The notes beneath the pieces were generated by a model, which saw only the letters and a list, made by a program, of their open reading frames with translations, was not told where the DNA came from and did no database searches. The position numbers and the translations under genes were made by a program. From Halomonas sp. 54_146 (GTDB taxonomy: Bacteria > Pseudomonadota > Gammaproteobacteria > Pseudomonadales > Halomonadaceae), in the NCBI RefSeq assembly GCF_001507855.1, contig NZ_LGEN01000011.1, positions 1 through 64,000 on the forward strand: DNA of 64,000 bases, read 5' to 3'. Shown here piece after piece: positions 712 to 57,658 of the stretch (position 1 is its first letter; every line of letters begins with the position of its first letter).

Positions 712-2403
712 ATGAATGAAACGACACTTGCACTTCTGGCTTTTTTGCCGCTGTTGCTGGCCGGTATTTTGCTCATAGGGTTTAAAATACCTGCCAAAAT
801 AGCGATGCCTCTCGTCTTTTTGACAGCCGCCATTATTGGCTTAACCGCTTGGGATATGTCTTTTAGCCGCGTCGCGGCTTCAACTATTCAAGGCCTGATT
901 CAAACTGCGGGTCTTTTATGGATCATCTTCGGTGCCATCTTGCTGCTTAACACGCTTAAGCATTCCGGTGGTATTACCGCTATCCGTAACGGCTTTTCAG
1001 ATATTAGCCCAGACCGCCGCGTACAAGCATTGATTGTAGCGTGGCTGTTTGGCTGCTTTATCGAAGGCGCTTCGGGCTTCGGTACGCCCGCCGCGGTGGC
1101 GGCACCGCTGATGGTGGCGTTAGGTTTCCCGGCGCTTGCGGCGGTGGTGGTCGGCATGATGATTCAGTCAACGCCGGTTTCCTTCGGTGCAGTGGGCACG
1201 CCTATTGTGGTCGGGGTCGGTAGCGGCTTGGATCGTGCGGGCATCACCACGGAACTTGAGTCGGTTGGCTCTAGCTGGGATGTGTTTTTCCAGCTAATCA
1301 CCAGCGAAGTGGCGATTACGCACGGCATTGTGGGTATTTTAATGCCGCTGATTCTGGTCACTGTGATGGTGCGCTTCTTTGGTGCCAATAAATCGTGGAA
1401 AGAAGGTCTGTCGATTACGCCTTTCGCTATTTTTACCGGCATTGCCTTCTCGGTACCTTACATGCTGGTAGGCGTTCTGTTGGGGCCTGAATTCCCCTCT
1501 ATGATTGGTGCCATGGTGGGCTTGGCCATTGTTGTACCGGCCGCCAAACGTGGTTTCCTGCTACCGAAAGACACGTGGGATTTCCCCGAAGAAAGTTCAT
1601 GGCCTGACGAGTGGATCGGCAACCTGAAGATCAAGCTGGATGATGTGGCGGGTAAAGCACCTATGTCCACCTTCAAAGGCTGGATCCCCTATGTGCTGCT
1701 GGCCCTGTTCCTGGTGGCTTCACGCACTATCGAACCACTACGCGCTGCGCTGACGTCTATCAACCTCAGCTGGACGAATATTCTTGGTGAGGCGGGCGTT
1801 AGCGGCGGCGTGCAGCCGCTGTATCTGCCGGGCGGTATCATTCTGGCCGTGGTCATTGTTACCTACTTCTTGCACCGTATGAACCCACAAAAAATCAGTG
1901 CAGCGGTGTCGGAATCCACCAAAACGATTTTTGGTGCGGGTTTCGTGTTGATCTTTACCGTGCCGATGGTACGCATATTGATCAACTCAGGCGTTAACGG
2001 CGCGGACCTTGTCTCAATGCCGGTGATGATGGCGCAAGCGGTGGCCGACAGCGTTGGCGGCATCTACCCTCTGTTTGCACCAGCAGTAGGTGCAATGGGT
2101 GCCTTTATTGCGGGGTCCAATACGGTGTCTAACCTGATGCTGGCAGAGTTCCAGTTCAGCGTTGCCCAGACGCTAGGCCTCTCCACGGCCATGATGGTCG
2201 CACTTCAAGCAGTGGGCGCGGCGGCAGGTAATATGATTGCCATTCACAACGTGGTGGCGGCCTCGGCAACGGTGGGGCTGTTAGGCCGTGAAGGCGCGAC
2301 AATCCGTAAGACGATTCTGCCAACGATCTACTATCTTGTCTTTACCGGTATTATCGCGATGGTGGCGTTCTATGTGATTGGGGTAACCGACCCGCTGATG
2401 TAA
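712..2403 (+). CDS. lldP: L-lactate permease (LctP family)
   Basis: A 563-residue integral membrane protein of the lactate permease family, which imports L-lactate, D-lactate and glycolate with protons across the inner membrane. It opens [20 protein letters not shown] and has about a dozen hydrophobic segments. It carries the conserved stretch [19 protein letters not shown] near residue 120 and [14 protein letters not shown] near 470, both characteristic of LctP/GlcA transporters. The length matches the family's usual 550-570 residues. It is followed, after an inserted IscB element, by glcDEFG for glycolate oxidation, so import and oxidation of 2-hydroxy acids are linked here. A TGGT-N3-ACCA operator upstream suggests control by a lactate- or pyruvate-sensing GntR repressor. 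Glycolate as the main substrate (GlcA-like) cannot be excluded. Confidence 0.9.
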
Positions 2404-2432
2404 AGGGAGTCGTTTTCTCAGTGTCATCACCT

Positions 2433-2458
2433 GCTGGGTAGCCCTAGGGCTACCCAGC
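2433..2458. terminator. Perfect 26-base palindrome after lldP, possible terminator
   Basis: Two exact 13-base arms, starting GCTGGGTAGCCCT, meet without a spacer 30 bases after the lldP stop. It would form a very stable hairpin. There is no T-run behind it, so it may be a Rho-assisted stop or a binding site instead. It lies just outside the IscB element's left end. Confidence 0.45.
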
Positions 2459-2518
2459 ACTGCATCAAACGATCCAGCCGCGTAAACCCTCCTCATCCAC
2501 AGGAGTTACCGTCAACTA

Positions 2519-2796
2519 CCTCTCCCTGAAGGGAGAGGCTTGTGACAACAAGCCCGGTTGACCAGGGAGAGCGGTAGCCAACCCGCTACGTTGATAACAG
2601 GTCGTTAAAACTCACCGGCAAGTGCTTCCTCAGCTTGCCGCTCTGAAAGGTTAGGATCATGCTGGCGCAAGGTAAAACGCCGAAGGTTCTAACCGCTGCC
2701 ACAAGGCAGGAGCCGGTTATCGACCTTCCCGAGGGGAGATGGGGCGCAAGCCCCGCGACACAAGACCCGTAAGGGTATTCACACAGGAGAAAATCG
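2519..2796 (+). ncRNA. Omega RNA (HEARO-type) guide RNA scaffold for IscB
   Basis: No reading frame fills this stretch, but it is dense in hairpins. Visible stems: CCTCTCCC-TGAA-GGGAGAGG (2519-2538); GGCTTGT/ACAAGCC (2537-2554), which overlaps the first and so may be an alternative; TAACCG..CTGCC-ACAA-GGCAG..CGGTTA (2690-2719); GGGGC-GCAA-GCCCC with a GNRA loop (2741-2754); and ACCC-GTAA-GGGT with another GNRA loop (2765-2776). The block ends at the iscB ribosome binding site, as HEARO/omega RNAs do. In this class the guide is the 15-20 nt immediately 5' of the scaffold, here roughly 2499-2518 in host sequence downstream of lldP. The exact 5' end is not determined. Confidence 0.75.
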
Positions 2797-2797
2797 C

Positions 2798-4138
2798 ATG
2801 GCGGTTTTCGTAATGGGAAAGAATCAGCAGCCGCTGATGCCGTGCAGTGAAAAACGCGCTCGGTTGCTGCTACAGCGCGGGCGTGCCGTGGCGCATAAGC
2901 GTTACCCGTTCACGATTCGGCTGAAAGATCGGGTTGGCGGAAACACGCAGCCGCTACGCCTCGGCATCGACCCCGGCAGCAGGATTACCGGGCTGGCGCT
3001 GATACGTGAATCGGTCGGTGAACAGCGGCATGTGCTGCGTCTGTTTGAGCTGGCGCATCGGGGCTTTCAGATCAAAAAAGCGCTGGAACAGCGTGCCGCC
3101 TTTCGGCGTCGTCGCCGGTCGAAGAATCTGCGCTACCGCGCCCCGCGCTTTAACAACCGCACCAAGCCCAAAGGTTGGCTGGCACCCAGCTTGCAACATC
3201 GCGTTGACACCGTGATGGCCTGGGTAAATCGGCTCAGTCGCTTGGCACCGATCACCGCCATCAGCCAGGAGTTGGTGCGCTTTGACACGCAGAAGCTGGA
3301 AAACCCAGAGATCAGCGGCATCGAATACCAGCAGGGTACCCTGCTAGGCTACGAGGTGCGCGAATACTTGCTGGAAAAATGGGGGCGTGAGTGTGCTTAC
3401 TGCGGCGATACAGACACACCTCTTGAAATCGAGCATGTGGTGCCACGCTCACGCGGCGGTACTAACCGCGTCAGCAACTTAGCGCTGAGTTGCCATCCCT
3501 GCAATCAGGCCAAGGACAACGGCACGCTGGACGACTTCTTTGCTACCGACAAAGGGCTGAAAAAACGACTGAAAACCAATGGCCACACCGCTGACGCTCG
3601 TTTAGAACGCGTACAGCGCCAGCTCAAGCAGCCGTTGCGCGATGCCAGTGCGGTCAATGCCACGCGCTGGGCGCTATTTAATGCCCTCAAAGCGACTGGC
3701 TTGCCGGTGGCTGTCAGCAGCGGGGGGCGCACCAAATACAACCGGCAGCGACTGGGCATTCCTAAAACCCATGCCCTAGACGCTGCCTGTGTCGGTGCGT
3801 TTGACATGCTGCACGATTGGGCGGTGCCGACATTAACCATTAAGGCGATGGGGCGTGGCAGCTATCAGCGCACGCGCCTGACCCAATACGGGTTTCCGCG
3901 TGGCTATTTAATGCGGCAAAAGCAGGTACACGGCTTTCAGACCGGCGACATGGTGAAAGCCGTGGTGCCGACCGGCAAGAAAGCAGGCACCCATATGGGA
4001 CGTGTCGCGGTGCGTAAAACCGGCAGTTTCAACATCCAGACCGAGCAGGGTACCGTGCAAGGCATCTCGCACAAACACTGCACCGTCATCCAGCGCGGTG
4101 ATGGCTACGGCTATCACTTACACCCTTCACCAACCTAA
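2798..4138 (+). CDS. iscB: IscB, RNA-guided DNA nuclease (RuvC + HNH), ancestor-type of Cas9
   Basis: A 446-residue protein starting at ATG 2798 behind a good AGGAG site. Domain order is that of IscB: N-terminal PLMP/RRXRR domain (QQPLMPCSEKRARLL, residues 10-25); RuvC-I LGIDPGSRITG with Asp58; arginine-rich bridge helix at about 99-121 (RRRRRSKNLRYR); RuvC-II ISQELVRFDTQ with Glu158; HNH with Cys199/Cys202, Glu212-His213, Asn227 and Cys232/Cys235; RuvC-III KTHALDAA with His325 and Asp328; and a C-terminal TAM-interacting region of about 110 residues. Every catalytic residue I can place is present, so both nuclease sites look intact. The family uses an omega RNA to cut double-stranded DNA next to a target-adjacent motif. 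The structured RNA directly upstream fits this. TnpB is excluded because TnpB lacks the HNH insertion. Confidence 0.9.
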   Translation: MAVFVMGKNQQPLMPCSEKRARLLLQRGRAVAHKRYPFTIRLKDRVGGNTQPLRLGIDPGSRITGLALIRESVGEQRHVLRLFELAHRGFQIKKALEQRAAFRRRRRSKNLRYRAPRFNNRTKPKGWLAPSLQHRVDTVMAWVNRLSRLAPITAISQELVRFDTQKLENPEISGIEYQQGTLLGYEVREYLLEKWGRECAYCGDTDTPLEIEHVVPRSRGGTNRVSNLALSCHPCNQAKDNGTLDDFFATDKGLKKRLKTNGHTADARLERVQRQLKQPLRDASAVNATRWALFNALKATGLPVAVSSGGRTKYNRQRLGIPKTHALDAACVGAFDMLHDWAVPTLTIKAMGRGSYQRTRLTQYGFPRGYLMRQKQVHGFQTGDMVKAVVPTGKKAGTHMGRVAVRKTGSFNIQTEQGTVQGISHKHCTVIQRGDGYGYHLHPSPT

Positions 4139-4171
4139 CAGGAGGAGCGGGACAGGCGGTGGCGTGATCCA

Positions 4172-4221
4172 CGTCGCCCTGCGGGCGACGCGCTATTCCT
4201 CCCGGCACTAGAAGTACCGGG
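4172..4221 (+). repeat. Right-end hairpins of the IscB element
   Basis: Two stems follow the iscB stop: CGTCGCCC-TGC-GGGCGACG (4172-4190), then CCCGGCAC/GTACCGGG with one mismatch (4201-4221). Subterminal imperfect hairpins like these are what Y1 transposases of IS200/IS605-type elements recognise. The glcD start codon lies 19 bases further on. Confidence 0.5.
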
Positions 4222-4239
4222 TATCCCGCGCAAAATCTG

Positions 4240-5739
4240 ATGAATATCCTCTTTGATGAGCGCCTAGACGGCGACATTACTCGTCGTGATAAAACCGAGG
4301 TTTTAACCGACTTGCAGCAAGCCGTGCCTGAGATGACGCTGCTGCATCGCGAGGAAGACCTGCGCCCTTTTGAGTGCGACGGGCTGGCGGCCTATCGCGT
4401 GCTGCCGATGCTGGTGGCGCTGCCTGAAACGCTGCAACAGGTTGAAGGGCTACTCAAGCGCTGCCACGCACTAGGTGTGCCCGTGGTCACCCGCGGCGCA
4501 GGCACCGGGCTTTCTGGCGGCGCACTGCCGTTGGAACATGGCGTGCTGCTGGTGATGTCGCGCTTTAATCAGATTCTGAAGGTCGACCCTGATGCCCGCT
4601 TAGCACGCGTTCAGCCCGGTGTACGCAACCTGGCGATTTCCGAAGCCGCGGCACCTTACGGGCTTTATTATGCGCCCGACCCCTCGTCGCAAATTGCCTG
4701 CTCGATCGGCGGCAACGTGGCTGAAAACGCCGGTGGCGTGCACTGCTTAAAATATGGCCTTACTGTGCATAACGTCATGCGCGTTGATGTGCTCACCATT
4801 GAAGGCGAGCATATGACGCTGGGCGCGGAATCACTCGATGCGCCAGGCTTTGACCTATTAGCGCTGATGAACGGCTCAGAAGGCATGCTGGGTGTGGTCA
4901 CGGAGATCACCGTCAAGCTGCTACCTAAGCCGGAAACCGCCAAAGTGTTGATGGCAAGTTTTGACGATATCGAAAAAGCCGGTCGCGCCGTCGGCGATAT
5001 CATTGCAGCGGGCATTATTCCTGGCGGCCTGGAAATGATGGATAAACTCGCCATCAAAGCCGCTGAAGATTTTATCAAAGCAGGCTACCCCGTTGATGCA
5101 GAAGCGATTCTGCTCTGCGAGCTGGATGGCGTTGAAGCCGATGTAGACGACGACTGCGAAACCGTGCGCCGAGTGTTAGAAAAAGCCGGCGCGACGGATA
5201 TTCAGCAGGCTCGCGATGAGGCTGAGCACGCCAAGTTCTGGGCGGGGCGCAAAAACGCCTTCCCCGCCGTGGGGCGTATGTCGCCTGATTATTACTGTAT
5301 GGATGGCACCATTCCGCGCCGCGAACTTCCCCGTGTATTAAAAGGCATTGCCGCGCTTTCTGAACAGAGCGGTTTAGCCGTGGCCAATGTGTTCCACGCC
5401 GGCGACGGCAATATGCACCCGCTGATTCTGTTTGATGCCAATAAAGAAGGCGAGCTTGCGCTTGCCGAAGAGGTGGGCGGCAAGATTCTTGAGCTGTGCG
5501 TCGCTGCGGGCGGTTCGATCACCGGTGAGCATGGCGTTGGGCGCGAAAAAATTAATCAAATGTGCAGCCAGTTCCAGCCGGACGAAATCAGTGTGTTCCA
5601 CGCCTTGAAAGCCGCCTTTGATCCACAGCGTCTTCTCAACCCAGGCAAGAACATTCCAACGCTGGCACGCTGTGCGGAGTTTGGCGCCATGCACGTGCAT
5701 AACAACGAATTACCGCACCCGGAACTGCCGCGCTTCTAG
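4240..5739 (+). CDS. glcD: Glycolate oxidase, FAD-linked subunit
   Basis: A 499-residue flavoprotein that oxidises glycolate (and possibly D-lactate) to the 2-oxo acid, together with GlcE and GlcF at the inner face of the membrane. It has an FAD-binding PCMH fold with TRGAGTGLSGGALP at about 85-98 and IGGNVAENAGG near 155. Its C-terminal FAD-oxidase domain has VFHAGDGNMHP, whose histidines are active-site residues in this family, and GSITGEHGVGREK. Length and N-terminus (MNILFDERLDGD) match the family. No Shine-Dalgarno sequence is visible before the ATG. The IscB element's right end stops about 20 bases upstream, so the original leader has probably been displaced. It heads glcDEFG; the glcD-glcE gap is 65 bases. 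Confidence 0.93.
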   Translation: MNILFDERLDGDITRRDKTEVLTDLQQAVPEMTLLHREEDLRPFECDGLAAYRVLPMLVALPETLQQVEGLLKRCHALGVPVVTRGAGTGLSGGALPLEHGVLLVMSRFNQILKVDPDARLARVQPGVRNLAISEAAAPYGLYYAPDPSSQIACSIGGNVAENAGGVHCLKYGLTVHNVMRVDVLTIEGEHMTLGAESLDAPGFDLLALMNGSEGMLGVVTEITVKLLPKPETAKVLMASFDDIEKAGRAVGDIIAAGIIPGGLEMMDKLAIKAAEDFIKAGYPVDAEAILLCELDGVEADVDDDCETVRRVLEKAGATDIQQARDEAEHAKFWAGRKNAFPAVGRMSPDYYCMDGTIPRRELPRVLKGIAALSEQSGLAVANVFHAGDGNMHPLILFDANKEGELALAEEVGGKILELCVAAGGSITGEHGVGREKINQMCSQFQPDEISVFHALKAAFDPQRLLNPGKNIPTLARCAEFGAMHVHNNELPHPELPRF

Positions 5740-8905: not shown

Positions 8906-8982
8906 TGGCGGACCGGACGAGACTCGAACTCGCGACCTCCGGCGTGACAGGCCGGCATTCTAACCAACTGAACTACCGGTCC
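8906..8982 (-). tRNA. tRNA-Asp (GTC)
   Basis: 77 bases including encoded CCA. The acceptor stem GGACCGG pairs with CCGGTCC, the anticodon loop is CTGTCAC (GTC), and the T arm contains GTTCGAGTC. It is identical in its mature part to the two other Asp copies in the cluster. Confidence 0.96.
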
Positions 8983-9026
8983 ACATCAAGGCACTAAAAC
9001 CATTTAATTACACAAGTGCTTTTAAA

Positions 9027-9102
9027 TGGTGGGCGGTACTGGGTTCGAACCAGTGACCCCCAGCTTGTAAGGCTGGTGCTCTCCCAACTGAGCTAACCGC
9101 CC
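9027..9102 (-). tRNA. tRNA-Val (TAC)
   Basis: 76 bases including CCA. Anticodon loop CTTACAA (TAC), acceptor stem GGGCGGT/ACCGCCC, T arm GTTCGAACC. The second Val copy at 9388 differs by a compensated acceptor pair. Confidence 0.96.
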
Positions 9103-9151
9103 AAAATATTTAGGTAACAAATACCCAATATTTTAACTTCTTGCGTTATCG

Positions 9152-9228
9152 TGGCGGACCGGACGAGACTCGAACTCGCGACCTCCGGCGTGACAGGCCG
9201 GCATTCTAACCAACTGAACTACCGGTCC
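9152..9228 (-). tRNA. tRNA-Asp (GTC), second copy
   Basis: 77 bases including CCA, same sequence as the copy at 8906-8982. The unit Val-Asp appears repeated in this cluster. Confidence 0.96.
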
Positions 9229-9262
9229 ACATACGACAACTAAGAACAATAAAAACTGATGA

Positions 9263-9339
9263 TGGCGGACCGGACGAGACTCGAACTCGCGACCTCCGGC
9301 GTGACAGGCCGGCATTCTAACCAACTGAACTACCGGTCC
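9263..9339 (-). tRNA. tRNA-Asp (GTC), third copy
   Basis: 77 bases including CCA, same sequence as the other two Asp genes, only 34 bases from the second copy. Confidence 0.96.
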
Positions 9340-9387
9340 ACTACTGCATCAATTAGTACTGCTTTACGCTTCCAGTCACCATTTGAA

Positions 9388-9463
9388 TGGTGGGTGGTAC
9401 TGGGTTCGAACCAGTGACCCCCAGCTTGTAAGGCTGGTGCTCTCCCAACTGAGCTAACCACCC
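9388..9463 (-). tRNA. tRNA-Val (TAC), second copy
   Basis: 76 bases including CCA, anticodon TAC. The acceptor stem reads GGGTGGT/ACCACCC, against GGGCGGT/ACCGCCC in the first copy: one base pair changed from C-G to T-A on both strands, pairing kept. It is the first gene of the leftward tRNA transcript. Confidence 0.96.
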
Positions 9464-57432: not shown

Positions 57433-57508
57433 TGGTGGGTCGTGCAGGATTCGAACCTGCGACCAATTGATTAAAAGTCAACTGCTCTACCAACTGAGCT
57501 AACGACCC
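57433..57508 (-). tRNA. tRNA-Lys (TTT)
   Basis: 76 bases including encoded CCA. Acceptor stem GGGTCGT/ACGACCC, anticodon loop CTTTTAA (TTT), T arm GTTCGAATC. Identical to the copy at 57583. Confidence 0.97.
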
Positions 57509-57582
57509 AAATTTTTTGCTGCACTTACTTTTTACGCTTCAACCGTTCGCGATTAATAGCTTGGCTATTAAAAAACATTTTA

Positions 57583-57658
57583 TGGTGGGTCGTGCAGGAT
57601 TCGAACCTGCGACCAATTGATTAAAAGTCAACTGCTCTACCAACTGAGCTAACGACCC
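57583..57658 (-). tRNA. tRNA-Lys (TTT), second copy
   Basis: 76 bases including CCA, same sequence as the first copy, separated from it by 74 bases. Both are read leftward toward the terminator at 57395. Confidence 0.97.

Follow-up and report, generated by a model that had tools for sequence, protein, structure and literature searches.

An IscB-omega RNA element inserted at the start codon of a glcD-like gene in Halomonas sp. 54_146, with a right end that may supply a new ribosome-binding site

Introduction

IscB proteins are the likely ancestors of Cas9. The structured RNA known as HEARO was reportedly defined by Weinberg et al. in 2009, who are also said to have noted ATGA or GTGA beside HEARO elements. 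The genomic life of IscB elements is little described in the accessible literature; our searches found no title or abstract on a habit of inserting at start codons, and we do not claim that such a habit is unpublished.

In IscB-omega RNA (HEARO) systems such as OgeuIscB, the protein contains a PLMP/RRXRR domain, RuvC with a bridge helix, and HNH, in that order; the omega RNA lies 5' of the gene; and TnpA is seldom alongside (PMC9640706, PMC9755519). The locus that we describe here is similar in all of these respects. It differs from OgeuIscB in its predicted target-adjacent motif (TAM), which is ATGA instead of NNRR (PMC9640706). ATGA does fit the NTGA motif of DtIsrB, whose omega RNA is about 300 nt, but our protein contains the HNH domain that IsrB lacks (PMC9581776).

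An intact IscB locus in front of a glcD-like gene

We analyzed a stretch of 64,000 nucleotides from Halomonas sp. 54_146 (contig NZ_LGEN01000011.1, positions 1 to 64,000), which we call the window. The parts of the locus and its neighborhood listed below are all on the + strand:

712..2403, +: L-lactate permease family gene, upstream of the element (ORF list, family search)
2495..2510, +: host DNA that would serve as the guide of the omega RNA, 16 nt (inferred length), including the original Shine-Dalgarno of glcD, AGGAG, at 2501-2505 (left flank matches relative L120)
2511..2744, +: omega RNA scaffold (HEARO, Rfam RF02033); the element begins at 2511
2798..4138, +: iscB, 446 amino acids (ORF list, domain profiles, residue alignment)
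4140..4145, +: AGGAGG directly after the iscB stop, the proposed replacement Shine-Dalgarno (three-copy alignment, pattern test)
4147..4229, +: right-end fold, with closing stem 4147-4152/4224-4229 and inner hairpins 4174-4188 and 4201-4221 (folding, alignment A2)
4239, +: last base of the element, its right end (three-copy alignment, empty site)
4240..4243, +: ATGA, the target site and predicted TAM; its bases 1-3 are the glcD start codon (three-copy alignment, empty site, site counts)
4240..5739, +: glcD-like FAD-linked oxidase, 499 amino acids, frame intact behind the element (ORF list, family search)

The original prediction, made from the letters and their open reading frames, was that an IscB nuclease with complete RuvC and HNH domains is encoded here behind a hairpin-rich 280 bases. 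The identity of the protein is borne out by the guided_IscB model of NCBIfam (451.5 bits, with a cut-off of 175) and by profile matches to the N-terminal RRXRR/PLMP domain (PF14239, 246.2 bits) and to HNH (PF01844, 46.5 bits). The hairpin-rich region proved to be HEARO, or omega RNA, at 2511-2744 (RF02033, 105.4 bits; gathering score, 83). The functional residues that had been named are all present in A1, an alignment of 19 IscBs from several phyla, which showed no catalytic loss in the window's protein: it retains D58, E158, H325, and D328 of RuvC; H213, N227, C199, C202, C232, and C235 of HNH; and RRRRR at the bridge helix. The columns of these RuvC and HNH residues are invariant in A1, except for those of D58 and E158, which are conserved at 90% or more. 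By their order and spacing, these residues appear to match D61, E193, H340, D343, and H247 of OgeuIscB (numbering from PMC9640706; the mapping is ours). No near-identical chain has been solved; by sequence, the best relative in the PDB is TbaIscB (9k30, E = 1.3e-44). In another IscB, from a Giesbergeria metagenome-assembled genome (L033), the first RuvC aspartate is replaced by asparagine at residue 58 (KINPGSK), so the RuvC of that protein may be dead.

We considered several other identities for the locus. IsrB was ruled out because the HNH domain is present, and matches to Cas9 families were below the cut-offs (44.4 bits against 375 for Cas9d and 31.8 against 100 for Csn1). An autonomous IS200/IS605 element was ruled out because there is no Y1 transposase (TnpA, PF01797) inside the element. 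Nuclease-dead repressors that use guide RNAs are defined by the loss of catalytic residues; this identity was ruled out as well, since every RuvC and HNH residue is kept. (We refer to such proteins as TldR-like, a name taken from PMC13418256.) The sequence evidence supports an intact OMEGA (IscB-omega RNA) locus in a halophile-type genome, which may be functional, as originally proposed. As such, the locus is an ordinary example of an already known type of element, and what is new is its position at a start codon. Neither this position nor the features of the right end were part of the original prediction.

The element lies exactly between a Shine-Dalgarno and its start codon

The genome (G000; 3.56 Mb in 90 contigs) contains three intact copies of the element: the copy in the window (C11) and copies on contigs C10 and C38, whose IscBs are 87% and 84% identical to it. 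Each copy has a HEARO match above the gathering score. When the three copies are aligned, the homology runs from GTCAAC (beginning at 2511) to ATCTG (ending at 4239), and ATGAA follows. Together with an empty site in a relative, this corrects the bounds of the element, which had been placed at 2499..4235, to 2511 and 4239.

The comparison with relatives that had been proposed as a check did reveal empty sites. In L120, glcD is uninterrupted: the sequence reads ataggagttaac, then ATGAATATCC, while the window has acaggagttacc. The sequence upstream of glcD in L120 (cctcatccataggagttaac, then ATGAATATCC) has 2 mismatches in 20 to the left flank in the window, and the left-flank match is poorer in other relatives. 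Among 29 glcD loci from relatives, 26 could be read (L120, and 25 loci across 34 bases upstream; L111, L113, and L115 are unread), and the glcD start is uninterrupted in all 26. The insertion is thus exact and without target duplication, with AGGAG (2501-2505) on its left and the glcD ATG (4240) on its right.

The C38 copy sits at the start of alaS. In 18 of the 19 other genomes shown, this start reads acggataccct directly followed by ATGAA; the remaining locus, L258, is unreadable at the junction. alaS is normally essential and has a single match in G000, so its translation must start behind the C38 element. The C10 copy (L004) lies between short genes around 2666 and 4394 that, by eye, resemble a HigB-type toxin and a HigA-type antitoxin.

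A mobile element with no transposase of its own

The absence of a transposase from the window, as originally predicted, held up: the Y1 family (PF01797) has no match there. Elsewhere in G000 there are only two Y1 matches, weak or partial. Among the 12 genomes searched, five (G000, G034, G049, G055, and G081) have no Y1 match above 100 bits, and G039 has 21 Y1 matches alongside many IscB copies. We also compared seven queries from TnpA regions to 56 loci with tblastn and found no hits; a distant TnpA would escape this search because the queries are all from one genus and two of them (L158 and L162) are probably wrong-strand translations. The absence of tnpA is ordinary for IscB elements, as few HEARO nucleases adjoin TnpA in a published survey (PMC9755519).

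Because the element lacks a transposase and its genes are intact in all three copies, it might be a domesticated nuclease that serves the host at the glycolate operon. We consider this very improbable. IscB was matched in just 12 of 82 genomes of the same genus, G000 included (G008 has only fragments; we took the genus to be Vreelandella from the nearest named matches). The three copies in G000 occupy three different places, and relatives have empty glcD sites. Also, G034, which is a single contig, has eight copies at different sites that are 97.8-99.7% identical to each other, which is a sign of recent spread; its only Y1 match is partial, at 29.5 bits. The original prediction had left the choice between mobilization in trans and retention for another reason. 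The patchy distribution and the copies in G034 fit the former better and the latter worse. The simplest reading is mobilization in trans, with the transposase later lost from some genomes.

Insertions at start codons are in excess

To count insertion sites, we called a site start-like if, with the flanks joined, a frame of at least 80 codons runs from the ATG (40 if cut by a contig end) and there is an in-frame stop within 300 bases upstream. The Halomonadaceae set has 43 elements: 53 finds less 12 duplicates leaves 41, to which L005 and L020 were added by hand. (We repositioned the right end of L015 manually. We excluded L067, L125, L134, and L137, which have a left end without a right end; L022, L027, L032, L136, L138, and L139, which have no left end; and the G008 fragments L074 and L081.) The second set, from Paraburkholderia, Giesbergeria, Sulfobacillus, a chlamydial genome, Moorena, and others, has 38 elements, chosen as 40 loci after their right ends had been viewed and less L144 and L245; the left end of L031 was placed separately. 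Some sites are not independent (L038/L041, L054/L195, which are in the same gene, and L071/L072), and some are common to relatives.

Start-like sites account for 32 of the 43 Halomonadaceae insertions. As controls, with start calls that are crude, we used ATGA sites in the same flanks (260/1947 start-like), those outside of gene interiors (94/450), and those in the sense orientation near a gene start (81/199); the excess over the strictest of these has p = 7.8e-5. In the other taxa, 30 of the 38 chosen elements are at start-like sites, as compared to 149/1255, 52/307, and 45/104 of the corresponding controls (p = 2.5e-4 for the strictest). A Shine-Dalgarno of at least 4 bases at a proper distance is present in the left flank of 26/43 Halomonadaceae elements and 15/38 others, versus 385/1947 and 233/1255 control sites. 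The neighboring motif is ATGA for 42 of the 43 Halomonadaceae elements; in the other taxa it is ATGA (33 cases), GTGA (4 cases), or ATGG (1 case), which is partly built in because we placed these right ends with strings of our own choosing (start status is not built in).

Another 55 loci are uncounted because they are partial or decayed or because their type of right end could not be placed. Twenty-eight of these 55 have no long frame that starts within 260 bases behind iscB (five of the 28 are contig ends), and in L050, L188, and L226 a long frame starts at the likely end. We left out about 20 further retrievals that duplicate places in the counts or lists (in L185, a sister genome has the same site), and the broken copy L143/L197 is in no count. 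With this selection, the counts support a preference for start codons, as the habit of one branch of IscB elements.

The preference might instead reflect survival only, with ordinary IscB elements and an AGGAGG that is incidental to the transposon end. Insertions within genes would be lost, the elements would need a sense position within transcripts to express IscB and its omega RNA, and most intergenic sense ATGA sites in dense operons are starts. We regard this as a serious contender, at somewhat worse than even odds. Limiting the controls to non-interior, sense, gene-start regions does raise the expected rate from 12-13% to 41-43%. Also, host transcription may be needed, because we found no sigma-70-like promoter in 2380-4300 (shuffled sequences have 0.4 on average), and ATGA is common at bacterial starts, with A enriched at the fourth base (PMC5850271). 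On the other hand, the excess persists over the strictest controls in both sets, and if survival were the cause, we would expect sites upstream of the Shine-Dalgarno to be favored over those between it and the ATG.

Where the start and stop codons of co-oriented operon genes overlap, the commonest motif is likewise NTGA (PMC12548453), so the predicted TAM is the same motif as these junctions. Unlike those overlaps, most of the insertions are at plain start codons, and few are at possible overlaps: an upstream frame of 76-347 codons ends in the junction TGA in L025, L133, L076, L122, L087, and L135. The left end has an in-frame stop (G TCA ACT ACC TCT CCC TGA), which we considered as a means of making 4-nt stop-start overlaps; because few sites could be of this kind, we dropped it as a general rule.

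The right end may restore a ribosome-binding site

Because the insertion parts the gene from its own ribosome-binding site, we infer that the right end replaces it. In 42 Halomonadaceae elements, iscB is directly followed by AGGAGG or a near variant; next comes a segment whose closing stem is, for example, GCGGGA/TCCCGC, and 7-11 nt separate this stem from the ATG. L023 is the exception. A similar arrangement is described for genes 25 and 38 of phage T4, where a hairpin between the Shine-Dalgarno and the AUG shortens the spacing to a working distance (PMC3014915). By analogy, the right end could be a split ribosome-binding site, but proposed here for the end of a mobile element.

To quantify this, we required a Shine-Dalgarno match of at least 5, located 0-3 nt before a stem of at least 5 pairs, and a distance of 3-12 nt from the end of the stem's 3' strand to the ATG. 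This pattern was found in 42/43 Halomonadaceae elements and 12/38 others, versus 54/1500 control segments and 35/810 shuffles. In nine of the 38 others, all of Moorena type, a plain Shine-Dalgarno precedes the ATG by 6-7 nt (264/1500 in the controls). In 12 of the 38, the stop codon of iscB lies on the junction, as TGATG (L242, L243, L244, L211, L254, L029, L030, and L193) or ATGA (L195, L192, L196, and L210). Such overlaps with the downstream start may be translational coupling or chance; we offer this as a weak remark only, because the right end is often crossed by open frames and the lineages are few. Altogether, 28 of the 38 have some means of restarting translation (folded Shine-Dalgarno, plain Shine-Dalgarno, or junction stop), and by the same tests the other 10 have none (L045, L047, L056, L149, L194, L200, L222, L223, L246, and L248). 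L054 is frame-broken.

There are further types of right ends. One type, which ends in CTCGCGGGCATTTG before GTGA, is found in L044, L149, L246, and L248 (L255 is similar) and is a separate sub-branch with a GTG neighbor; only L044 of this type passes the test for a folded Shine-Dalgarno. The Moorena right ends of L222, L223, L224, and L226 are of other types, with a poly-T end before ATGA or with ends before ATGG. L200 has a ZMP/ZTP riboswitch (4164-4278) about 1 kb from the IscB locus.

Alternatively, AGGAGG and the stem might only be a DNA structure that is recognized by the transposase, without a role in translation. AGGAG could pair with the CCTCC of the right end instead, and Halomonadaceae and Moorena elements have both GGAGG and CCTCC in their right ends. 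Structural evidence bears on this from A2, an alignment of 32 right ends. The inner hairpins clearly covary. In 83% of cells the closing stem is paired, but just one of its pairs has changed on both strands, and RNAalifold selects an inner GCGC pairing for its 3' strand instead. When sequences are folded singly, a pairing between the two closing segments has a probability above 0.5 in 31 of the 32, which were mostly picked for having the pattern, and the Shine-Dalgarno is about 60% unpaired. The five Giesbergeria copies (L242-L244, L211, and L254) and L029/L030 keep the CCTCC core without a Shine-Dalgarno match by our test, an argument that mobility does not require AGGAGG. We consider a purely structural role less likely than not. 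We hypothesize, with moderate support from these sequence comparisons, that the right end re-supplies a ribosome-binding site to the downstream gene.

Proposed life cycle

Our preferred explanation, to which we assign a probability of roughly 0.65, is that this is a non-autonomous, mobile IscB-omega RNA element that was placed before ATGA and whose right end replaces the ribosome-binding site. A Y1 transposase acting in trans, which is absent now or is encoded by another element, would place the element before ATGA. The omega RNA would take its guide from the ~16 bases of host DNA to the left of 2511 (the guide length of IscB omega RNAs is described in PMC9640706). If ATGA is the TAM, as the insertion sites suggest, then IscB would cut the empty allele and spare its own: at the occupied site, the guide is followed by GTCA instead of NTGA, which should protect it. 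Cutting of empty alleles would favor retention of the element and its copying into them. The guide would probably act mainly on close relatives, because TAM-proximal mismatches stop OgeuIscB (PMC9640706); even L120 differs from the window's guide close to the TAM. Finally, AGGAGG after iscB, followed by a fold that ends 7-11 nt before the ATG, may let the ribosome start the downstream gene.

More broadly, there might be a widespread branch of IscB that is specialized for start codons. The TAM would be the start codon plus A, the guides would carry the host's Shine-Dalgarno, and the right end would be a portable ribosome-binding site, folded or (in Moorena) plain, so that even essential genes such as alaS could be interrupted at the ATG at little cost. 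We give this generalization slightly less than an even chance. If the right end does restore translation, this would explain how an RNA-guided nuclease whose TAM is a start codon is able to spread while doing little harm, and TAMs and insertion sites could then be predicted from genomes by a rule. The start-codon habit, along with the proposed ribosome-binding site at the right end, is the part of this locus that is worth following.

Other features of the window

The genes downstream of the element include two FAD-binding proteins, one iron-sulphur protein, and one HbpS-like protein (the names glcD, glcE, and glcF are labels that we assigned). We found eight terminator-like patterns in 2380-4300, versus 1.9 in shuffles; two are on the plus strand, inside iscB (3023-3038), and the minus strand has the rest. 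A perfect palindrome, TGCTGGGTAGCCCTAGGGCTACCCAGCA, without a run of T, lies at 2432-2459, after the permease gene and before the element. Five tRNA genes are clustered on the minus strand at 8906-9463 (Asp-Val-Asp-Asp-Val, in order of coordinate), and two adjacent tRNA-Lys genes are at 57433-57658, also on the minus strand.
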